From a virus: 64,000 bases of DNA. The notes beneath the pieces are model-generated. The model saw only the letters and a program-made list of their open reading frames with translations, did no database searches and was not told where the DNA came from. Of the stretch, positions 2,009 through 51,638 are shown in pieces. The DNA is taken from positions 1 through 64,000 of IMG/VR virus record IMGVR_UViG_3300042335_000815. The stretch is one strand, 5' to 3'. Made by a program: the position numbers and the translations under genes. The first letter of the stretch is position 1; each line of letters starts with the position of its first letter.

Positions 2009-2896
2009 ATGAGCAACATTCGTAACCAAGCAATGTTAGTGAGCCTGAACATCGGGCTCTTCAACCCCAAGAAAATGGACCGCAGCGTCACACGCGAGGT
2101 CCTCATCAGCAAGAATGCTTCAGCCAACGCCGGAGCGTTCGTCAAAAACATCCTGCCCGACGAGGCGATCAAACCCATCCAAGCAGCGGCCTCCGCTCTT
2201 CGTGCATGGGTCTACACCCAAACGCTTCCGTGGAACGACGAGTCATTCCGTCTTCTGCCGGTGGCCCAGTGGGATTCGTTCACCGATCAACTCCGTGCGC
2301 GCATCGCCAGCGTCAATTCGTTGGTCGACCAGTTCTGCTCGCAGTACGAAATGCACCGCGACAAAGCCCTGCTGCAACTCGGAGCGCTCGCCGATCCCAA
2401 AGACTACCCGCCGCTGCACGTGGTGCGCACCAAGTTCTACGTCAACGTCAACTACACGCCGCTGCCCGACAGCCGTGACTTCCGCTTGGACGACATGCCC
2501 GAAGAGGCCATGTCCGAACTGCGTGAGCAGGCCGACCTGCGCGTGGCCGAGGCTGTCAGCGAAGCGCGCAACGATCTGTACCGCCGACTTAGCGAGCGGC
2601 TCGAACACATCGTCAAGCGCATGAACGAAGTGTCTGCCAAGAAGGAAGGCACTCGCATCCACGCCTCGCTGCTCACCAATCTCAGCGAACTCTGCCAACT
2701 GATCCCGGCGCTCAACGTGACCAAGGACCAGGAGCTGGAGAATCTCCGCCAGCGTGTCATGCACGAGATTGCGCCGTTCGACATCGACGACATCCGCGAG
2801 TCCGAGGACAGCCGCACCGAACTCAAGAAGAAGGCGTCGAGCATCCTTGAAGCCATGGGGTTCAACCCCGTCAACCAGCAGAGGGAGGCTGCCTAA
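2009..2896 (+). CDS. DUF3150-like protein, partner of the VWA module
   Basis: 295 residues, mostly helical, with long amphipathic segments in the middle and C-terminal half. The overall pattern matches my memory of the DUF3150 family, often encoded beside MoxR-type ATPases and VWA proteins in phages and bacteria. It probably acts with the VWA metallopeptidase at 350-1633, perhaps as a scaffold or substrate adaptor. No catalytic motif is visible. It is the first gene after an operator-bearing promoter region, so it may be switched with the lysogenic state. It has no clear Shine-Dalgarno sequence. Confidence 0.65.
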   Translation: MSNIRNQAMLVSLNIGLFNPKKMDRSVTREVLISKNASANAGAFVKNILPDEAIKPIQAAASALRAWVYTQTLPWNDESFRLLPVAQWDSFTDQLRARIASVNSLVDQFCSQYEMHRDKALLQLGALADPKDYPPLHVVRTKFYVNVNYTPLPDSRDFRLDDMPEEAMSELREQADLRVAEAVSEARNDLYRRLSERLEHIVKRMNEVSAKKEGTRIHASLLTNLSELCQLIPALNVTKDQELENLRQRVMHEIAPFDIDDIRESEDSRTELKKKASSILEAMGFNPVNQQREAA

Positions 2897-2945
2897 CACT
2901 TAGTACCTAGCGTCAACCAGACATTAGGAAGGAGGTGATGCTTTC

Positions 2946-3092
2946 ATGCTACCGATAAAACAGATGTTACCAAAGGCTACATATTCCGCAGCGATGGTTC
3001 TACTGACATCATCAACACTCGTAGCTCTCGATAGATCCCCGGGGGTCGCGCATCCGGGGGTCCATACAAAACGCGAGGCGGACATAGGTTAA
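2946..3092 (+). CDS. Hypothetical small protein, 48 aa
   Basis: Not obvious from length alone, but it has one of the best ribosome binding sites in the window, AAGGAGGTGA at 2929-2938, eight bases before the ATG. The product has a moderately hydrophobic stretch at about residues 12-28 that could be a membrane segment or signal, then a polar tail rich in Pro, His and Arg. The segment coding for the tail contains two copies of CCGGGGGTC. No family is recognised. Confidence 0.55.
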   Translation: MLPIKQMLPKATYSAAMVLLTSSTLVALDRSPGVAHPGVHTKREADIG

Positions 3093-3137
3093 AGAAAACG
3101 AGGGGCGCGCATTCGTCGATAACGCGCATTAACTTTT

Positions 3138-3368
3138 ATGGATAAAAACCAACAACGACTAACGCTGGCAGGAAACGCCCTTCAGGGACTGCTGGCATGC
3201 CAAAACCCCGAAAAAGGCTGGGACATCGGCGCACTCGCCGTGACCAGTTTGAAGATCGCTGACGCGGTGATCTATGTCAGCAACATGGAGAAACTCCCTG
3301 ACCTGGCCGACAGCCGGGAGCAAGAGCCATCCCTGGTTGTAACGCAGCCCACGATCATCACGCCGTGA
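3138..3368 (+). CDS. Hypothetical protein, 76 aa
   Basis: A soluble, probably helical small protein ending in a Pro/Thr-rich tail. The stop overlaps the GTG of the HNH-like gene, suggesting coupled translation. No family is recognised. Confidence 0.6.
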   Translation: MDKNQQRLTLAGNALQGLLACQNPEKGWDIGALAVTSLKIADAVIYVSNMEKLPDLADSREQEPSLVVTQPTIITP

Positions 3369-3580
3369 GTCGCGACTACCGCAGCGAGTACGACAACTAC
3401 CAAGGCACCGAGGAGCAGAAGAAGCGGCGGGCGATCCGCAACGCCGCTCGTCGCAAACTCGAAGCCGAAGGTAAGGTCCGCAAGGGAGACGGCAAAGACG
3501 TCCACCACGTCAGCGGCTTGCATAACGCGGCGGCCAACCTTCGCGTAGTCAGCAAGTCCTCCAACAGGAGCATGAAATGA
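3365..3580 (+). CDS. Small HNH-like protein
   Basis: 71 residues. The C-terminal half carries the pattern of the N-terminal half of HNH endonucleases: a DGKDVHH strand-turn, a short helix containing the Asn (HNAAANLRVV), then SSNRSMK. Small proteins of this pattern are common in phages. The N-terminus is a charged helix rich in Arg and Lys. It lacks room for a complete HNH nuclease with zinc knuckles, so it may be a nicking-type enzyme, a homing endonuclease remnant or just a DNA-binding fold. The GTG start overlaps the upstream stop, and the next gene starts in its own stop (ATGA). Confidence 0.65.
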   Translation: MSRDYRSEYDNYQGTEEQKKRRAIRNAARRKLEAEGKVRKGDGKDVHHVSGLHNAAANLRVVSKSSNRSMK

Positions 3581-3714
3581 CACCAGTCACCGTCAACAAA
3601 ACCGCTACTATCATCATCCTTGTCGCCGCTGCGCTGGCACTCGTCACGCTATTGCAGTCGTGTGACAACGACTACTTCGGCCGCCCGCCCGACGCTTACT
3701 CCTTATTGAAGTAG
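3577..3714 (+). CDS. Tiny lipoprotein with inner-membrane retention signal
   Basis: 45 residues: a short N-terminus, a hydrophobic segment (about residues 11-26), then a lipobox-like LQSC with Asp directly after the Cys. In enterobacteria Asp at +2 keeps a lipoprotein in the inner membrane. The mature part would be only about 18 residues. Small phage lipoproteins of this kind often block superinfection; that role here is inference. ATG overlaps the upstream stop. Confidence 0.5.
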   Translation: MTPVTVNKTATIIILVAAALALVTLLQSCDNDYFGRPPDAYSLLK

Positions 3715-3718
3715 TTCC

Positions 3719-4120
3719 GTGCCGCAAAACCATGCCACCAACTGGAAACATCAGGGGAGCAAGAACGAACTCTTGTTCATGGCCGAGTGCATGAAACGCG
3801 GCTGGAAAGTTAACATGCCCTTCGGTGACGACAGCAAATACGACGTGGTCGTGGATACCCCCGACGGTCTCCGCCGCATCCAAGTCAAGAGCTGCCACAA
3901 ACCCGATGTCCGGGGTCGTTATCGCATCAATCTAAAATACGGGCGGCGTTCCTCGGGCGCTTACTCCACCGAAGACTGCGACATCATCGCGGCCTACGTC
4001 ACACCCCTGAACCACTGGTTCCTTGTGCCGGTGGAGAAAGTCACCACGACACACCTGGACCTGGCGCACCACCACCACGATTGCCTGGAGGCCTGGGGGA
4101 ATATCCATGAAGAGGCCTGA
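3719..4120 (+). CDS. PD-(D/E)XK superfamily nuclease-like protein
   Basis: 133 residues. It has an early helix with Glu (NELLFMAE), then GDDSKYDVVVD followed by a strand reading IQVKS. That is the E...D...(E/Q)xK order of PD-(D/E)XK nucleases such as Holliday junction resolvase-like and homing-type enzymes; Gln replaces the usual Glu before x-Lys. The C-terminus is His-rich. Start is GTG, four bases after the previous stop. It could cut or process DNA in recombination. A non-catalytic relative cannot be excluded. Confidence 0.65.
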   Translation: MPQNHATNWKHQGSKNELLFMAECMKRGWKVNMPFGDDSKYDVVVDTPDGLRRIQVKSCHKPDVRGRYRINLKYGRRSSGAYSTEDCDIIAAYVTPLNHWFLVPVEKVTTTHLDLAHHHHDCLEAWGNIHEEA

Positions 4121-4229
4121 CATCATAGAGTTCTGGATCGGTGCTGCCGTGGCTTTGTTCGCTCTGGTCATGTCCAACGCAATTTTCTGGGGCAGCATTT
4201 ACTGGCTCTTCACTCGCATCTGGAAATGA
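4107..4229 (+). CDS. Small membrane protein, 40 aa
   Basis: Starts inside the end of the nuclease gene and ends in an ATGA overlap with the next gene. A single long hydrophobic segment (about residues 10-35), rich in Trp and Phe, indicates a transmembrane peptide. Function unknown. Confidence 0.55.
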   Translation: MKRPDIIEFWIGAAVALFALVMSNAIFWGSIYWLFTRIWK

Positions 4230-4579
4230 AAGCCCGCCGCATCACTATCCGCGAAAAGACTTTCGGCCTAATTGTCCGCGTCCAGGTCGGCGGCACCATG
4301 CGCTCGGCCAAAGCGGAGTGCGAACGCAGTTGCGACATCGAGCCAATCGGCAACCTGGAAGACACCAACGGCTGGGCCGTGGTCAACTGCTGCTACGCGT
4401 TTATCTACCTTCATCAATGGCCTGAGAGCCACAGGAACGGGACTTTCGGAACTCTAGTCCATGAACTCGGGCATGTCGTGCGGGGGTTCATGAAGAACAT
4501 CGGCTGTAAAGACGAAGAAGCCCTCTCCAACTTGGATCAATTTCTGTACGCCGAAGCCCACAAAAAGCTCGACAAGTAA
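4226..4579 (+). CDS. Small HExxH zinc metallopeptidase-like protein
   Basis: 117 residues. LVHELGHVV at about residues 75-83 is a zinc-binding HExxH motif in a helix. It is followed by a helix with Glu and Asp (DEEALSNLDQ) that could supply a third ligand. There are four Cys residues. It resembles compact phage metallopeptidase-like proteins of unknown target. Starts in the stop of the previous gene (ATGA). Confidence 0.65.
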   Translation: MKARRITIREKTFGLIVRVQVGGTMRSAKAECERSCDIEPIGNLEDTNGWAVVNCCYAFIYLHQWPESHRNGTFGTLVHELGHVVRGFMKNIGCKDEEALSNLDQFLYAEAHKKLDK

Positions 4580-4582
4580 TTT

Positions 4583-4768
4583 ATGACAACCACCAAACCG
4601 AAAGCCAAACGCAAACGGGTCTCAAAGCCCAAAACAACCCAACCCATCACGTCCGAAGCCACTTCATTCTTCGCCACAGCCCTGACCATTAAAGGCAGGT
4701 TCACGCTGGCCTGGATGCTGTTCAAAGCTGCCGTGCGAATCCTCATCAAAGGTCGCGCTCTTGTCTGA
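4583..4768 (+). CDS. Hypothetical basic protein, 61 aa
   Basis: A Lys-rich N-terminal third (four KPK-type clusters) followed by an amphipathic or membrane-like helix containing FTLAWMLFKAAV. It could bind DNA or membrane. Overlaps the next gene by one base pattern (TGATG). No family is recognised. Confidence 0.45.
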   Translation: MTTTKPKAKRKRVSKPKTTQPITSEATSFFATALTIKGRFTLAWMLFKAAVRILIKGRALV

Positions 4769-4914
4769 TGTCCGGGCCGTTGATCATCCTGACCGGGCTG
4801 ATTTACGCCTACGTGGCCTTTGAGCAAGGCTGGAAGGGCAACATCGGCATGTGCGTTGCCTACAGTGGCTACTCGTTCAGCAACGCCGGGCTGTATCTGC
4901 TCGCGTCTCGATGA
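4768..4914 (+). CDS. Small membrane protein, 48 aa
   Basis: A hydrophobic N-terminal segment (about residues 4-20) and a Gly/Tyr/Ser-rich rest. Both ends overlap neighbouring genes (TGATG upstream, ATGA downstream), which supports it being translated. Function unknown. Confidence 0.5.
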   Translation: MSGPLIILTGLIYAYVAFEQGWKGNIGMCVAYSGYSFSNAGLYLLASR

Positions 4915-10600: not shown

Positions 10601-13600
10601 TCCGACACGTTTACCACGGATGCGAATGCCGGGACGTGCGGCAACAATGCCTCCGGTCGGCGGTTCGTAGATCGTTTCAGTGCGTCGTCCATTATCAGCT
10701 ACGAGACTCTTTTCTTCCAAAATAGCTGAAGTGAATAGCGCTTTTTCTTGGGCTTTATTAGCCACGCCGTTGAATACAATGCGGTCGCCGTCTTGCTGCA
10801 CCACGCGCAGCCAGCCCATGCGCTTCATATAGTCGGTGACTACTTCGTAGCCTCGATCGAAAGCGTCGGGACTATTCAAAGCATCCTGCAAAAGCGCGTA
10901 GGCATTGGGATCGTTCATGGAGAGGAACTCCAGCGCGGCGGCTTCGTGTCCACCGAACTGACCCATCTCGGCCTCCCAACCCTGCACTTGGTCGCCAGCG
11001 GAAATTGTTTCAGCCGCTACCCAGCTACCATCGGGACGCAGCCAGCCGTTGCCCGGCGGAAGTGTTGCGTCAATGTCATCGATGTCGAGCGTCGGTTGCC
11101 CACGACGGCGCGCGAATGCCAGGTCTTCCCGGGATACAGACGCAGGGTTTTCTGTAAATTGGCGCTCGATCTGAAGCACCCGCATTTGAGACTCCAGCGC
11201 GTTGATGGTGTGCGCCAACACAGGGTCACGAGCCACCTCAAGTCGCGCTTTAAGTCGGTTGACCAAAGAGCGGAGAAACTGCATCACCTGTTCAAAAAGA
11301 TTCTGCGGCAAATTCTCGGGAGCCAGATCCTCAGTCGTCTGGCCATTACGCATCCGCTGCACCAGCATGCGCAGGTATTCGGAGCCAACAGACAGGTCGT
11401 CGAGGCTGTCGAGGATCTCCTGTCGCTGGGCGGGGTCGGTAAATTGGTCGGCGGTGCCGACATAGCTGTCGATAACCCGCTGGCGCACGTTGTCCGGAAG
11501 TCGCTGGGCGATCGCCATGATGATCTCTTGCGGGATCGTCTGGCGCTCGACCATGTGGACGTACTCTTCGAAGAGCACGGCTTTGAGGAAAGGCTGCGCC
11601 TCTGCTGCAGAAAGCCCGTTCAACTCTTGCTCTAAGAGCAGCGGGTTCAGGAAAATCTGATTGCGGAACCGGGGGTTGTACCAAGCTGATGCGGTGTGGT
11701 CGGTGCTGTAGGTAATCTTGGCTCCTGGAAACTCGGCGCGTAGACGGTCGACGGCCGAGCGGTAACCTGAAGCCGCTCCCTCGGGTGCTTCTAAAATGGC
11801 ACGGATCTCAGGCAAGGATTCAGCCAGGGCCGAATCCGGCAACGTCGTGTTGCCTTGTTCAAAAAACGGACGGAACTTCCCTGCATAATACTCAGCCAGT
11901 CGAGTAAACTGGGTCGGCGTAAAGCTCGAAACATTGCGGACCCCGAGCGCCCGGGCCACCAATTTCATCCACGACGTCTGCTCGGAAATGTAAGGCGTCT
12001 TCTGCTTCGGGCTCGAAGAGACGATCTGGTTGGTGTTGCCGGTGTCGACGTTGCGGAAGTCCTCTGCCGTGAAAGTCCAGTAATCGACGTCGTTGGCTTC
12101 GAGGTCATCGATGACGTTCTGCGGGGCCAGATCCAAAAGCTCTTGGGCCTCGGCTTTAAGCTTGGCTACCGCTTTCTTAGAGATCCCTTGGGTCAGGCGC
12201 GGGCTGTTGACGATGTTATATGCCTGATCGTAGTTCATCCCGGTCGACGCGCCCCCGATCGACCCCTCTAAATCAGCCGGTTCATCGGCTGCCACGCCCT
12301 CATCGATGGCGTCGGCTTCTTTGATGGCCGCTTCACGCGCGTCACCAATCTGCGCTTCATCGCTGTCGGCCAAACGATCTTGGGCCGCGACAGTTTCCCC
12401 GCGCGTCAAAGTTCCTGTCTCCGTGATCGGTGCGTCCAGCGAGACTTGTTTCGGAAGGTTCTTGATGCGGTCGAATGCTTTTTCATTCGCGAACATCCAG
12501 ACCTGACGTGCGCTGTAGTTATTGCGATCGGCGGCAGGACGAATTTTGTCCTTAGTCCTTTCGTTGACCCAAATGGACAAAGCCTTGGAAGCCAGCTCGG
12601 CGCTGGAAAAACGCTCGCCGATCTGCGGCGAAACCGGGGCCATGCTCGTCAGTTGCGCTTCGATCTCCTTGTAAAGATCCAGGTCGCCCTTGTTGAACTT
12701 GCGCGATTGCGCCGCCATTTTCTTGGTCTCTGTGTCGCTGACCAAAGATCTTTCCACGGTGGTCCCGGGGCGCTGGGCTTTCACGCCGCGCTCCAGTTGT
12801 CCTGGAAGCTGTACAGTTACCCCGCGAGAAACAGCGGAAGTAACCCGGCCTGTCTCCGGTTCAAACTCGATTCCCTGAACCACTGAACCCCTGAACCCCT
12901 GAGGTATTGTCGGGATAAGCCCTTGGTCCAGTTGACGTGCGGTCACGTCGGGGTTGTTGACAAAGACAGGTTCAGTCCCGGTCTCCGTAATGCGAATTGG
13001 CACGTTGTCGATGCCGTCGAAATCCTTGGTGAATTCCAGATTTTCGTCATACGCGATGCCGTAGTCGGCGGCTACTTGACGCGCGGCTTCACGACGCACA
13101 GCCTGACGTTGCTCGACCGGCAGCGGCTGCACCGATCCTTGCTCCCCGAAACGTGCGTTGATTGTAACGCTGCTCGGAACGGCCCCCTGTTTGCGCGACT
13201 CCGCGATTAGCTCGGAAGCATTCTGCGGCAAACTGGCTACTAAAGGATTAGCAGCGGGCGCTGGTGCCAGATTGGTGTCAGCAGCAGGTGCGGGCTCGGC
13301 CTCCAGACGCTGGCGCACCCGATCGCGGATCTCGGCGATCGCCTTGTTGACGTTGGTCTTCGGGTACCAGCCTTTACCCTGAATGTCCTTTTTGATGTCC
13401 AGAGCCTTGCGCCCCGTGATCTTGGTCCCGGCGTTCCGGGCTTCTTGGACCAGGGAATCTTCGTAGGCCTGAGCGTCGGGACTCGGAGCTGGCGCGATCA
13501 GGGGTTGCGGTGCTGGAGCAGGGGGTTGCTGGTTTCCAGGAAGTGCGGCGGTCGGTTGGGCAGGAGCGGCCTCTGGCGCAGATGGGGCGGGTGCTGCGGA

Positions 13601-45708: not shown

Positions 45709-46884
45709 ATGAAACGCACCAAAAATCTGGCTTGGCCGTTGGTCAAAAAGACCCGCTACGGCAAAGTCACCATCTATCGTCAGGTCCGGGAAAACCGGGA
45801 ATCCTTCGCCGTAGCTTACAGGCTCGGAAAGACCCGGGTTCGTGAGACCACTAACAAACAAGAAGACGCCATCGAGCGTGCTGCCGTAGTCCTTTCCGCC
45901 TTCGAGAAAGGCGAGACTCCGCAGCCGATGGTCAAAAGCGTCGACAAATGGAAGCATGTCGTAGGCGACGTCCCGCTGGAAGAAGTGTTCCGCTCCTATG
46001 CGGAACAGCACAACTTGCTGCCCTCCGTCACCGTCAAGACGGTCGTCGATGAATTCCTCATAGTCAAGTCGCAAGATGGGCTTAAGCCCGACACCTACGC
46101 CACAATCAAAAGTCAGGTGTGTAAATTGTCGACCAGCTACGGGGCCAGTTTGATTAAGAATCTCACCACCGATGACTTGAACACGTTCCTGCGGGGTATC
46201 CCTGATCTCCGCTACCGGCACAACCACCGGGCCAACATCAAAGCGCTCTTCCGCTGGGCCCTGACCAAGAACTACGTGCGCTACATGCCGCAATACAACG
46301 GCACTGCGGCCGACGGGACCCAGGCCATCGCCTCCAAGCACTTCCAGAAAACTCCGGACATCTACACACCGGAAGAATTAAAACGACTGTTTGACGCGGC
46401 TAACTGGTCCATGATCCCGTGGTTGATTGCCGCCAACTATAGCGGCATCCGCAAAGCCGAGATCGCCCGGCTGCGTTGGGATGACATCGACTGGGACGAA
46501 GGCGCATTTGTGCTCAAGACAGAGATCACCAAAACTTCGAACCGGCGCATGGCCTACTTCCCACCGGGAGTCAAAGACGGCCTCAAAGAACTGGCGGTCA
46601 TGGCCAAACTACAGAACCGGACCAAACTCGTGCATGGCAACATCAACAAGCTTGTGGCTAAACTACGCGCAGACGCCGGGGTCAAACACCGGAAGAACGG
46701 ACACCGCAAAGCCTACATCACATACGCCATGGCCCTTACCCGCAACGCCGAAGAGATCGCCGAACAGTGCGGCAACTCAGCGCGAGAAATTCAACGAACC
46801 TACAAAGGCTTGTCGTCCAAAGCGATAGCCGAAGAGTGGTTTAAGGTGATTGACACCTCGGGCATTCAAACTAAAGTTTACTAA
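45709..46884 (+). CDS. int: Tyrosine recombinase / phage integrase
   Basis: 391 residues. The N-terminal part has an arm-binding domain and a core-binding domain (VKTVVDEFLIVKSQ). The catalytic domain has Arg in SGIRKAEIARLRWDD (near residue 245), then a HRKAYITYAMALT segment in place of the usual HxxR, and GNSAREIQRTYKG with the likely nucleophile Tyr near residue 365. The plan matches integrases common in Verrucomicrobiota and Planctomycetota as I recall them. Beside it is the tRNA-end core, so the phage is temperate or descended from one. No Shine-Dalgarno sequence is seen. Confidence 0.85.
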   Translation: MKRTKNLAWPLVKKTRYGKVTIYRQVRENRESFAVAYRLGKTRVRETTNKQEDAIERAAVVLSAFEKGETPQPMVKSVDKWKHVVGDVPLEEVFRSYAEQHNLLPSVTVKTVVDEFLIVKSQDGLKPDTYATIKSQVCKLSTSYGASLIKNLTTDDLNTFLRGIPDLRYRHNHRANIKALFRWALTKNYVRYMPQYNGTAADGTQAIASKHFQKTPDIYTPEELKRLFDAANWSMIPWLIAANYSGIRKAEIARLRWDDIDWDEGAFVLKTEITKTSNRRMAYFPPGVKDGLKELAVMAKLQNRTKLVHGNINKLVAKLRADAGVKHRKNGHRKAYITYAMALTRNAEEIAEQCGNSAREIQRTYKGLSSKAIAEEWFKVIDTSGIQTKVY

Positions 46885-47420: not shown

Positions 47421-47727
47421 TGCCGGGAACTCCGTTCGCATCACGATGCTGCCCGAAGGGCGCGTGTGCGTGGAGCTTGAGGACGTGCGTCCGGATGTCG
47501 TCCCATCCGGTCCGCAAGACCTCATCTTCGACGTACTCGACGTGGCCGAGTTGTTAAAGACGACGCAACGGCACGTGCGCAACTTGATGCACCGGGAGAA
47601 AAATCCACTGCCCTTTTACAAACTCGGGCGCAAAGTCCGTTTCCGCGAGGCCGACATCCAGCAATGGATGAAAGCCGCACCGGACAACCTGGCCCGTAAA
47701 TTCATAAAGGAGTTGAAAGCAGCGTGA
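47395..47727 (+). CDS. Excisionase-like helix-turn-helix protein, 110 aa
   Basis: Start at ATG 47395 preferred over 47359, which would overlap the upstream gene more. The C-terminal half, from DVLDVAELLKTTQRHVRNLM through VRFREADIQQWMKA, is the HTH_17/MerR-like fold used by phage excisionases and small regulators. The N-terminal half is beta-rich. Close to the integrase and ahead of the resolvase. It could direct excision or regulate. Confidence 0.7.
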   Translation: MRLNRLVLDAGNSVRITMLPEGRVCVELEDVRPDVVPSGPQDLIFDVLDVAELLKTTQRHVRNLMHREKNPLPFYKLGRKVRFREADIQQWMKAAPDNLARKFIKELKAA

Positions 47728-48170
47728 TCATCGCTATCGACCCAGGGAAATCGGGCGGTTTTGCGTTCGGCTGTCATCTTTCGACAGTTGAACTCAAAAA
47801 CATGCCCGAGACCCTGGGCGATCTGGTGGATCTCTTCCGCCAGTTCCCGCAACCCGCCACCGTCTACATGGAGAAGGTCGGTGGGTATGCGGGAGGAGCG
47901 GGCGCACCAGGCAGCGCGATGTTCAATTTTGGCAAGGGTGTTGGTCACCTCGAAGCGATAACCTATGCGCTCGGCTTCGAGACCCGGCAGGTGGCTCCGC
48001 AGAAATGGCAGAAGGCGCTGAGCTTGGGCAACTCCAACGGCATGACCAAGACCGAGTGGAAGAACAAGCTCAAGAACACGGCGCAGCAGCTTTACCCCAA
48101 TAGCAAAGTGACCCTCTCCACGGCCGACGCTTTGCTTATTTACCACGCGGCCCATCGCGGACTAATTTGA
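47724..48170 (+). CDS. RuvC-like Holliday junction resolvase
   Basis: 148 residues, GTG start in the upstream stop. The N-terminal AIDPGKSGGFAFG is the first catalytic Asp motif of RuvC/RNase H-fold resolvases; YMEKVGGYAG carries the second acidic residue (Glu), and an Asp at STADALLIY provides the third. It resolves branched DNA during replication or packaging. Overlaps the helicase gene by four bases. Confidence 0.8.
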   Translation: MIIAIDPGKSGGFAFGCHLSTVELKNMPETLGDLVDLFRQFPQPATVYMEKVGGYAGGAGAPGSAMFNFGKGVGHLEAITYALGFETRQVAPQKWQKALSLGNSNGMTKTEWKNKLKNTAQQLYPNSKVTLSTADALLIYHAAHRGLI

Positions 48171-49753
48171 AAAGCCTCTACGCCGCTCAAGAGCAGCACG
48201 TGGGACAGTTGGTCCGCGCGCTGAACAAGCACCGGGCCGCGTTGGATTCGTCGGACACCGGCACGGGCAAAACCTTGTGCGCGGTCGAGACAGCCAAGCG
48301 GCTCGGTGCTTCCATCTTCGTCGTCTGCCCGAAGATCGTCGTGCCGTCCTGGGAGCGCACGGCCAAGGAGCAGGGTTCGAAGCTGCTAGGTATCCTCAAC
48401 TACGAGAAGCTGCGCACCGGTAAAACTCGCTTCGGACATTGGTCGGGCAAACAGTTCGAGTGGAAGATTCCAAACGACTGTTTGATTATTTGGGACGAGG
48501 TTCATCGGTGCCAGGGGCTCTGGAGCCAGAACGCCAAGATGCTCATCTCGGCCAAACCTTGGCGCAATCTCCTGCTATCGGCCTCCGCCGCCGAAGACCC
48601 GACCGAGATGAGGGCGAGCGGATTTCTCCTCGGGCTGCACACCCTCTCCAACTTTTTCAACTGGGCTAAAGCGCACGGCTGCGAGGTAAACCCGTGGGGT
48701 GCGCTTGAATTCAAGCACCGCGAGCAGTGGGCCTTGGACAAGATCAACTACGAACTTTATCCGGAGCACGGCGATCGTATGACACGGTCCATGCTTGCCG
48801 AGCACTTCCAGGAAACGCGCATCATCACCGATCCGCTGGACTTCGGCGACAAGGGTGCGATCAAAAAACTTTATGACGAAATGGACCAAGAACTCTCGGC
48901 CCTCGAACAAAGGATCAAAGGCGACAGCAAAAACAAAGCAGCGCAAAAACTCGTCGCGCAGCTCCGCGCAAGACAAGCGGTCGAACTGGCGAAAGTACCA
49001 GCGACGGTTGAAATCATTGAGGACGAACTCCACGCAGGCAATTCGGTGGCCGTCTTCGTCAACTTTGATGCGACGATTGAAGCCATTGGGCAACGCCTCA
49101 AAGCGCCCTACGAAGTCATCAAAGGCGGTCAGAAAGCCGACGAGCGACAGTTGGTCGTGGACCGATTTTCAAGCGATGCTAATCACGTCGTCCTCTGCAA
49201 CATCGCCGCAGGGGGACTCGGAGTTTCGCTACATGACCAGCGAGGCGTGAGGCCGCGCACCGCGATCATCTCGCCGACATTCAACGCGAAGGATCTTTTG
49301 CAGACGCTCGGACGCGTGGATCGTGCGGGTTCCAAGAGCCAATCCGTGCAGCGCATTCTCTTCGCGGCCGGGACGGTGGAGGAGAAAGTTGAAACGAGCG
49401 TTCGACTTAAATTAAAAAATCTGGCCGAACTGCATAAAGGTGACTTGACACCCACACCCGACAATGTTGTATTAGGGGTACAAATGAAGGACACCGCACC
49501 ACAAGCCGTAGTGGCCCCTGCGAGCGAACCGGCCCACGCCAAGCACGGCCCCTCCTCGCTTAAGTACAAGGAGATCTGTCCGTCATTCGCGAATCGCGAA
49601 GGCTCCAACTGGGCTTCGGACAAGGGCGACCGGATTCACGCGGCCATGGAATTTGATGACCCGTCCAAGTGCGCCAACGACGAGGAACGGGCGATCTATG
49701 AATCCCTGCAGGGGTTCGTCGGAAACATCATCAAGCGGAGGACGGGGAAATGA
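48167..49753 (+). CDS. SNF2/DEAD-type helicase fused to a nuclease N-terminal segment
   Basis: 528 residues, with TTG as likely start. Superfamily 2 helicase: Walker A TGTGKTL near residue 28, DEVH near 110, and the C-terminal lobe ending in GRVDRAGSKSQSVQRILF. After this, from about residue 445, comes a segment with HGPSSLKYKEICPSFANRE and GDRIHAAME, the N-terminal Cys-containing part of Cas4/DUF2800-like PD-(D/E)XK nucleases. The catalytic half is separate at 50760. So this is a helicase-nuclease fusion carrying half a nuclease. ATP-driven unwinding coupled to an exonuclease is likely. Confidence 0.8.
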   Translation: MKSLYAAQEQHVGQLVRALNKHRAALDSSDTGTGKTLCAVETAKRLGASIFVVCPKIVVPSWERTAKEQGSKLLGILNYEKLRTGKTRFGHWSGKQFEWKIPNDCLIIWDEVHRCQGLWSQNAKMLISAKPWRNLLLSASAAEDPTEMRASGFLLGLHTLSNFFNWAKAHGCEVNPWGALEFKHREQWALDKINYELYPEHGDRMTRSMLAEHFQETRIITDPLDFGDKGAIKKLYDEMDQELSALEQRIKGDSKNKAAQKLVAQLRARQAVELAKVPATVEIIEDELHAGNSVAVFVNFDATIEAIGQRLKAPYEVIKGGQKADERQLVVDRFSSDANHVVLCNIAAGGLGVSLHDQRGVRPRTAIISPTFNAKDLLQTLGRVDRAGSKSQSVQRILFAAGTVEEKVETSVRLKLKNLAELHKGDLTPTPDNVVLGVQMKDTAPQAVVAPASEPAHAKHGPSSLKYKEICPSFANREGSNWASDKGDRIHAAMEFDDPSKCANDEERAIYESLQGFVGNIIKRRTGK

Positions 49754-50124
49754 CTGAGATAGAAATCTTGGACATCGATCAGTTCGCGTGGGGCACGTCG
49801 GCACGTACGACAGACCCTGATACTTCGAAGGCGGCGGCCTCATCTCAAAAAAACAATCTACGTTGGGGGTCCCAAAGGCATCGGCTCCTGCAACTGTTTT
49901 ACGAGCTTGGAGAGATGACAGACGAGGAAGCGGGAAAAGCCTCCGGCCTCTATGACGCAAGGGCCTGTTACTGGAAGCGGTGCGGGGAGCTGCGAGATTT
50001 TGGACTTATCGCCGACACAGGGAGAACCCGGATCAGTGGATGCGGAAATGAAGTGCTCACCTCTACGATCACCGAAGAAGGCGTCTCAAGGCTTAAAGAA
50101 ATGGAAGGTCAGGGAAATGAGTAG
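49750..50124 (+). CDS. Winged-helix-like phage protein, 124 aa
   Basis: GSQRHRLLQLFYELGEMTDEEA followed by RCGELRDFGLIADTGRTR suggests a winged helix-turn-helix of a type frequently seen in phage replication blocks. Begins with TSARTTDPDTSKAA, also common at the N-terminus of that family. It sits between the two nuclease halves. Likely DNA-binding. Confidence 0.65.
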   Translation: MTEIEILDIDQFAWGTSARTTDPDTSKAAASSQKNNLRWGSQRHRLLQLFYELGEMTDEEAGKASGLYDARACYWKRCGELRDFGLIADTGRTRISGCGNEVLTSTITEEGVSRLKEMEGQGNE

Positions 50125-50551
50125 CACCCCACGTACTGACGAGGCCATCGAGCGGTGGCACCAGGGCAAGGTCAACATCCTTGAGGAGATAGCTAAGCTC
50201 GAAATCGATTTGAACCTCGCCGAGGCCGAACGCGTGGAGCTGGCCAAGCAACTGCAAAGCGAAAAAGAAATGTACGCCGCGTGTCAGAACGAATGTGAAG
50301 AGCAAGCCCGACTACTTGGCATGAGCGGGGAGCGCGAAGCCGCTTTACTCACCAAAACCGGCTACTGGGAGTCCCTGATTAACTGGCTCGAACAAGTTCA
50401 GGAAGCCTACAAGGGCCGGGACCGCGACGACCTTACACAACTTTACGCGCGCGGCCCTTTCGCCGGTTGGAGCCAAGAGAAGATGGTCCGGCTGGCCGAT
50501 GAGCTTTGGGAGAACGAGCAGAAATACCCGCTACGAGGAGACAGGAAATGA
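50117..50551 (+). CDS. Coiled-coil hypothetical protein, 144 aa
   Basis: Start ATG 50117, eight bases inside the previous gene. N-terminal long Glu/Leu-rich coiled coil (about 20-70), then a helix-rich Trp-containing domain. No family is recognised. It lies in the insertion between the two nuclease halves. Confidence 0.6.
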   Translation: MSSTPRTDEAIERWHQGKVNILEEIAKLEIDLNLAEAERVELAKQLQSEKEMYAACQNECEEQARLLGMSGEREAALLTKTGYWESLINWLEQVQEAYKGRDRDDLTQLYARGPFAGWSQEKMVRLADELWENEQKYPLRGDRK

Positions 50552-50763
50552 GCGAGCCGAACTACATTGTCGGCAAAGCTGAATTCGTCCCCTACCCCGA
50601 CTGGGTTTGCAAAACATGCGGAGACAAGTTCGGGCGCGGCATGCCCGAAGGACATCTCGCCACCTGGCACATCGAGAAGTGCGACATCTGCAACCAAGAA
50701 GTCGAGGTCACAGAACCACGGGATTTTCGCCACATGAAGAAGTGGCCGATTGAAGACAAATGA
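50548..50763 (+). CDS. Zinc-finger-like protein, 71 aa
   Basis: CKTCG ... H ... H ... CDIC forms a CXXC and a CxxC pair with two His between: a likely zinc site. Starts in the upstream stop (ATGA) and overlaps the nuclease start by four bases. Small DNA- or protein-binding module. Confidence 0.6.
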   Translation: MSEPNYIVGKAEFVPYPDWVCKTCGDKFGRGMPEGHLATWHIEKCDICNQEVEVTEPRDFRHMKKWPIEDK

Positions 50764-51638
50764 CACACATCGCCAAAGACTATCGTGAAGTAAGGGTCCA
50801 GATAGACCTGGGCCATGGACGCAGCACCTTCGGGACCTGCGATCGGTTCGTTGTCTACTCCGACAACACGGCCGACGCCATCGACTATAAGACCGGCTAC
50901 GGCAAGATCGATGACGCCGAGATCAACATCCAGGGCCAGGCCTACGTGCTTGGCCTATTCCAGAAATTTCCACAGGTGACAGAAATCACCATGTGGTTCC
51001 TTGTGCCAGCGCGGGACGAGGCGAGCATGCACGCGTTTACTCGGGACGACATACCGGCCATTCGGCTTCGTATCTCGACCATTATTGAGCGTGCGGAGTG
51101 TGGTGGGCACTACAATCCGCAACCGGGCGTGTGTGATTACTGTGGGAATCAGGGTCGCTGTCCCGCGCTGGCCTCTAAAGTCCTGACCATCGCACAGAAG
51201 TACCAAGAGGACGGCCTCCCGATCCCCGAGTCCGTCCATGGCAGCGAACAGGATGACCCGGTCAAAGTGGCAGCGCTTATGACACTTGTCCCGATCGTGG
51301 AGTCCTGGGCCAATGGGGTCCGCAAACGTGCCACCGAAATGGCCGTGGATCATGGGATGGAGCTTCCGGGGTTCAAGGTCATCGAGATGTCCAAGCCCCG
51401 CTCGATCACCTCGGCGCTCGGAGCCTACGAAGCGGTGCAGGAAGAGGTTGGTCTGCGCGACTTCATGACCTGCGTCGACAAGGTTTCGTATCCGAAACTC
51501 GAAGAACTTTTTGCCAGTAAGGCCAAAAAAGGCACGAAAGCGAAAACCCGCCAGATCCTGGAAGGGAAATTGCGGGACCTGGGAGTCCTCCAAGATGAGG
51601 GGGTCTCCTATCAACTAAGGAAACAAAAGAACCAATAA
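50760..51638 (+). CDS. PD-(D/E)XK exonuclease, catalytic half (Cas4/DUF2800-like)
   Basis: 292 residues. EVRVQIDLGHG, FGTCDRFVV and DAIDYKTGYG (about residues 9-50) are the D...D-x-K core of this nuclease family; the conserved C-terminal Cys residues CDYCG...RC (near 120-130) would form the iron-sulfur or zinc site. The normally preceding N-terminal part, with its Cys and GxxxH motif, is missing here and is found at the C-terminus of the helicase. So the enzyme is split by a three-gene insertion. It may work as a complex with the helicase. Confidence 0.75.
   Translation: MTHIAKDYREVRVQIDLGHGRSTFGTCDRFVVYSDNTADAIDYKTGYGKIDDAEINIQGQAYVLGLFQKFPQVTEITMWFLVPARDEASMHAFTRDDIPAIRLRISTIIERAECGGHYNPQPGVCDYCGNQGRCPALASKVLTIAQKYQEDGLPIPESVHGSEQDDPVKVAALMTLVPIVESWANGVRKRATEMAVDHGMELPGFKVIEMSKPRSITSALGAYEAVQEEVGLRDFMTCVDKVSYPKLEELFASKAKKGTKAKTRQILEGKLRDLGVLQDEGVSYQLRKQKNQ

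Follow-up and report, generated by a model that had tools for sequence, protein, structure and literature searches.

The window analyzed here, a stretch of 64,000 nucleotides from a virus record, encodes a PD-(D/E)XK exonuclease in two pieces. Sequence comparison confirmed that the tail of a SNF2-like helicase and the gene starting at position 50760 are two parts of one DUF2800/phrog_69 nuclease, as the original prediction had proposed; elsewhere, the tail and the short nuclease form one intact domain rather than independent ones. We consider it probable that the two chains reassemble, such that the helicase with the first nuclease piece and the protein encoded at 50760 would constitute one motor-docked nuclease, split by inserted genes. 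Relatives, which are contigs from IMG/VR, are indicated by L-numbers. The relevant features of the window are as follows.

48167–49483, plus strand: SNF2-like (SF2) helicase core (Helicase_C, E = 1.8e-9; phrog_62 DNA helicase, E = 1.2e-39).
49484–49753, plus strand: helicase tail, the N-terminal nuclease piece (split I, first part); over 72 residues, it shares 79% identity with the N-terminal end of the fused, intact L010 nuclease (E = 1e-40).
49577–49579, plus strand: codon of the cluster cysteine in the tail (helicase residue 471, C27 in L010), invariant in 42 of 42 aligned rows.
49637–49639, plus strand: codon of the motif histidine in GDRIH of the tail (helicase residue 491, H47 in L010), invariant in 42 of 42 rows.
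49750–50124, plus strand: cargo gene 1, 124 residues, perhaps a winged helix (phrog_18663, E = 4.9e-13; phrog_1123, E = 3.3e-5).
50117–50551, plus strand: cargo gene 2, 144 residues, coiled-coil-like (47% identity to L002/L042 cargo).
50548–50763, plus strand: cargo gene 3, 71 residues, zinc-finger-like (CxxC..H..H, CxxC; Pfam matches below the cut-off).
50760–51638, plus strand: second piece, 292 residues, with the catalytic part of the nuclease according to its DUF2800 and phrog_69 profile matches.
50841–50891, plus strand: codons of the catalytic FGTCD (D28) and D-Y-K (D42, K44), corresponding to D107, D121, and K123 in L010 and invariant in 42 rows.
51132–51161, plus strand: codons of C-x2-C-x5-C (C125, C128, C134), corresponding to C204, C207, and C213 in L010 and invariant in 42 rows.

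The full helicase ORF (48167–49753) encodes 528 residues, and its core shows weaker matches to SNF2-type defense helicases. Its TTG start codon overlaps the stop codon of a gene for a RuvC-like Holliday junction resolvase (47724–48170; phrog_1770, E = 2.8e-20), which is a member of the same packed operon. The window also encodes a tyrosine-recombinase-like integrase (45709–46884), which matches Phage_integrase and XerA-type models weakly and is a hint that the phage is temperate.

The tail begins with a conserved in-frame ATG at 49484, ends with a stop codon at 49751–49753, and contains ...HGPSSLKYKEICPSF...GDRIHAAM.... Family searches (Pfam and phrog) with the isolated tail gave no match. Its similarity to the L010 nuclease, which is itself covered by phrog_69 in one unbroken stretch (102–435), agrees with the proposal that the tail represents the N-terminal Cys/GxxxH portion of the enzyme. 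The nuclease-homologous part is formed by the C-terminal ~75 residues of the helicase (within 49484–49750) and begins at about residue 454, not at about residue 445 as had been proposed, the in-frame Met being residue 440. This ATG at the helicase/nuclease join (49484 in the window, 7743 in L006, 7758 in L010, 7737 in L016, and 7755 in L018) is kept in all 13 copies listed, while the linker varies, and its counterpart in L076 is the codon at which the separate nuclease gene starts. It is a possible internal start that could yield a free tail or a free nuclease, which we record as an observation only, because most copies do not have a clear Shine-Dalgarno sequence.

The 50760 protein matches Pfam DUF2800 (E = 1.1e-19) from profile position 117 onward and the phrog_69 exonuclease (E = 5.7e-26) from profile position 193 onward, and therefore appears to be without its N-terminal part. 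Together with a match to PDDEXK_1 (E = 1e-7), these results bear out the proposal that the D...DYK half and the Cys cluster lie in a separate gene. A PDB sequence search with query A3 gave no significant match, and a second DUF2800 was not found within the 64-kb window. The helicase tail and the 50760 gene are read in different frames and are separated by 1006 nt, with four stop/start overlaps along the way.

With the nuclease piece as query, 20 IMG/VR contigs were retrieved. The original prediction had suggested looking for phages in which the two pieces are one gene, and this is the case in 14 of these first 20 relatives (L006–L014 and L016–L020), where core, tail, and nuclease lie in one frame without a stop codon. 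The fused ORFs encode ~810–900 residues, one of the 14 running past the contig end, and are ~74% identical to the window proteins. Further searches added fused copies in L028, L041, and L073–L075, and a distant one in L139, as well as two contigs (L076 and L078) in which helicase and nuclease are separate genes and the nuclease is whole. The distant fusion occupies positions 2198–4879 of a 71-kb viral contig; the helicase–DUF2800 fusion is therefore either old or of repeated origin. Among isolated phages (five examined), the DUF2800 family is one gene, and it is one chain in contigs L136, L137, and L141 as well. In a set of 53 phage records, none spans 80% of the helicase–nuclease fusion, a scan of genome contigs with query A1 found no relative, and tblastn with the tail gave no match in isolated phages; all close relatives are therefore metagenomic.

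The window, L001–L005, L015, L042, and L058 share the same break point, with inserts of 322–1006 nt. Here, fused ...YVAQICKGRQVTKDFREV... aligns with split ...FVGNIIKRRTGK, which is followed by a stop codon, plus MTHIAKDYREV... at the start of the second piece; since the fused sequence is matched by both split ends, no part of the domain has been lost. Some fused relatives have GTGAC at the break site, where the split ones have ATGAC. In an AlphaFold model of the intact domain (mean pLDDT 78.6; ~90 near the break), the break falls in a loop between a helix (residues 61–78) and a strand (residues 83–97). Its confidence is low in the segment with the three cysteines (residues 196–206, pLDDT <50). 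A full-length model (pTM 0.44) was rejected as a basis for placing the nuclease on the helicase because packing between the domains is too uncertain. An assembly artifact was likewise rejected, as the split contigs come from several metagenome samples. In a phylogenetic tree, the split I clade is one branch within the fused ones, and its sister clade is fused.

Both borders of the cassette are exact 4-nt NTGA overlaps in all contigs checked. Because overlaps of this kind are frequent at other places in this phage, those at the borders do not prove a special mechanism. A fixed insertion point, and the presence of homing elements in the clade (polA of L001), might suggest that the gene still yields one continuous protein, with the cassette acting as a self-splicing intron, intein, or split intein. 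We regard this as extremely improbable: Rfam gave no match at E ≤ 1, the break borders are stop/start overlaps and carry no Hint-like or intein sequence, and the upstream chain stops ~5 residues beyond the homologous part. Moreover, the cargo consists of packed protein genes that are wholly different between contigs and have no constant ends.

The cassettes of split I hold one to four small genes, which vary from phage to phage.

Window: three genes (wHTH-like, coiled coil, and zinc-finger-like).
L015: a chimeric coiled coil, an ORF of ~85 residues, an HTH gene, and a zinc-finger-like gene.
L001: a zinc finger and a 156-residue ORF.
L002/L042: two coiled-coil ORFs.
L003–L005: one of the coiled-coil ORFs of L002/L042.
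L058: a 101-residue ORF and a coiled coil.

The proposed count of three intervening genes is right for the window; the labels that had been given to them hold only in part. Cargo gene 1, which had been called a winged helix, has no Pfam match, is absent from all other split contigs, and matches only phrog_18663 and phrog_1123, which are families of unknown function; its start forms an ATGA overlap with the stop codon of the tail. The coiled-coil gene has no convincing family match. The C-terminal half of its product is 97% identical to a protein part in L015, where it occurs under a different N-terminus. The CxxC/H motifs of the third product fit a zinc finger, but its Pfam matches are only sub-threshold. 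The same product is 85–91% identical to cargo in L001 and L015, and a homologue in the fused clade is encoded directly upstream of the helicase. The window and L015 are 98% identical over the 3.75 kb of flank that ends at the stop codon of the tail, and their cargo sets differ, meaning that cargo turnover is recent. PADLOC returned only cross-matches to SNF2-type helicases and sub-threshold matches.

One idea is that a homing endonuclease gene caused the split and afterward gave way to other cargo. Phage genes in pieces of such origin are known, for example nrdA with mobE in Aeh1 (PMC2988022), and the polA insert of L001 contains an HNH endonuclease gene (phrog_3377, E = 2e-49). Searches with the genes of the six cassette types, however, revealed no homing endonuclease, and we think this origin somewhat unlikely. 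It concerns how the split arose and is compatible with reassembly of the two chains. As to the polA gene of the close relative L001 (9716–12517), its in-frame insert of ~330 residues (CLSGETQ... to ...VMIAHN/C) has intein-like motifs and no Pfam or NCBIfam match for an intein, and the HNH endonuclease ORF (236 residues, 11565–12275) lies inside it in another frame; it would be unusual for an intein to have its endonuclease in an overlapping frame. The polA gene of the window is without an insert of this type.

In a second, distant group, clade T (~20 contigs: L044–L056, L097–L119, and L140, which are partly the same contigs), helicase, tail, and nuclease each have a gene of their own. The break lies in a hairpin after strand 1 (HKELRVEIRHG, a stop codon, then M..IFGTVDR), some 15–20 residues beyond the break of split I. 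A homologous small gene of ~67–84 codons at this break was recognizable in 11 of 12 contigs examined; in the twelfth, L103, the script chose another frame. In L118 and L140, this gene family (PIYxFKMNxNL...; L097 3787–4014, L118 1538–1741, L140 3841–4047) overlaps the tail and nuclease genes by up to almost 50 nt. Its product is perhaps a third subunit.

Since clade T is an early branch and is also split, the split state could be ancestral and the fused gene a later joining. Against this, the two breaks lie at different points (one before strand 1, the other after it), DUF2800 is single-chain in the isolated phages and the three contigs mentioned above, and the tree with single-chain outgroups needs two state changes, a single split clade being rejected (AU test, p = 0.001), so we consider an ancestral split very unlikely. 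By this comparison, the nuclease was split twice independently, and the difference in break point fits two origins, with some caution needed because of the long outgroup branches in the tree.

To compare the motifs, 42 rows were aligned, comprising fused, single, and both split kinds (eight of split I and 12 of split II). Ten residues are invariant (L010 nuclease numbering): C27, H47, D107, D121, K123, Q137, Y141, C204, C207, and C213. The nuclease motifs H, D, D/E-x-K, and Q-x3-Y are thus all present and in split phages divided over two chains; in the clade of the window, the helicase chain carries C27 and H47 and the second chain the other eight residues. The four cysteines span the domain. 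For helicase core, tail, and nuclease, dN/dS is ~0.1 among split phages and similar among fused ones, and as judged from these ratios both pieces are under strong purifying selection. The dS of the helicase is lower than that of the nuclease, a hint at exchange of nuclease pieces between phages, which we do not claim because the bootstrap intervals (nearly) overlap and polA differs too.

It could be argued that the pieces no longer cooperate, the tail being a leftover or having a new role and the 292-residue protein acting alone or being dead. The second piece has, by itself, the D, D-x-K, and Q motifs. Yet the low dN/dS of tail and nuclease has persisted after the split, the tail Cys and His and the second-piece residues are invariant in all split rows, and the division arose twice with both pieces retained. 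Loss of cooperation therefore seems unlikely. The invariant residues on both chains, together with purifying selection on both, suggest instead that the split enzyme would assemble on the helicase.

For the reassembly of the two chains, we envisage the following scenario. The ancestor would have been a fusion of a SNF2-like helicase with a DUF2800 (RecB/Cas4-type) exonuclease. One break in the ancestor of the window's clade would have occurred when small genes entered the coding sequence at a surface loop that links the N-terminal helices of the nuclease domain to strand 1. The helicase chain retains the motif histidine and one cluster cysteine, and the second chain has the metal-binding D, D-x-K, QxxxY, and three cysteines. 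Both chains could be produced from one message by reinitiation at the overlapping ATGA codons and would then jointly form a single active nuclease fold that docks on the helicase, keeping unwinding and cutting coupled, as in the fused relatives. Because the gene would work in two pieces, the break would be a tolerated site for gain and loss of small genes. We infer the nuclease activity, polarity, and metal cluster of the split enzyme; the metal of the four cysteines may be Fe-S or zinc, and the chains are possibly stapled together by the shared cluster. A more far-reaching and tentative reading, to which we give slightly less than even weight, is that of a natural two-chain iron-staple helicase–nuclease in which active site and cluster are each completed by two polypeptides, with the cluster holding the nuclease to the motor, the enzyme being split twice and the break of one clade being a hotspot for translationally coupled small genes.

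The nuclease alone, the helicase fusion, split I, and split II make up a natural series, which allows testing whether the helicase needs a covalently attached nuclease and whether two chains can share a metal cluster. The series also bears on how phages tolerate genes inserted within an enzyme gene, and the two independent break points indicate places where a Cas4/RecB-type nuclease is divisible. For annotation, the tail alone escapes profile searches, and split genes get called as unrelated ORFs. No description of a split DUF2800/Cas4-type nuclease was found in the literature, as judged mostly from titles and abstracts.

The split nuclease is located in the duf2800-gp2.5-polA neighborhood, which is known from phages (PMC8093625). 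It is homologous to the phage DUF2800 (PF10926)/phrog_69 exonuclease, with the same motifs, the same four cysteines, and the same position beside an SSB-like gene and polA. Unlike the DUF2800 proteins of the isolated phages examined, which are one chain without a helicase, the window enzyme consists of two chains, the first of which is fused to a helicase. The best Foldseek matches to the intact-domain model were Cas4-like ACE1, AdnA, Cas4 SSO0001, MGME1, AddAB, and RecE. In iron-staple nucleases (AddB, Cas4, and Dna2), four such cysteines, spread across the domain, bind a cluster on which structural integrity depends (PMC7430649, PMC3466216), and the related phage nuclease family DUF3799 was crystallized with zinc (PMC3466216). 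The window enzyme resembles AddAB, Dna2, bacterial Bad (PMC7430649), and Cas4 (PMC3466216) in being a RecB-family nuclease with an N-terminal Cys and C-x2-C-x5-C, and its fused relatives resemble the iron-staple helicase–nucleases in that the motor carries the nuclease. AddAB, AdnAB, and Dna2 have an SF1 motor and a single-chain nuclease, whereas the motor here is SNF2-like (SF2) and the window nuclease is on two polypeptides, a motor joined to a complete nuclease in one chain being found only in the relatives.

The split nuclease is a further case of a known phenomenon, phage genes in pieces. The split NrdA of Aeh1 (with mobE) is fully functional, and the split 43A/43B proteins of phage 25 co-purify, homing endonucleases being involved or suspected in these splits; further examples are topoisomerase 39/60 with mobA in T4 and 43A/43B in 44RR (PMC2988022). 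As in those cases, the gene is whole in relatives and split by an insert, and the products presumably assemble. What sets the present case apart is that no homing endonuclease was detected in the cassettes, that their one to four cargo genes change between close relatives, and that the same enzyme was, by the tree, split a second time independently, with other cargo. The mitochondrial cox2 gene of Campsomeris (PMC5374615) is similar in that the gene for an enzyme subunit became complementary genes through an ORF-bearing insert; it differs in belonging to an animal organelle, in being known from a single lineage, and in having a putative nuclease in the insert (PMC5374615).
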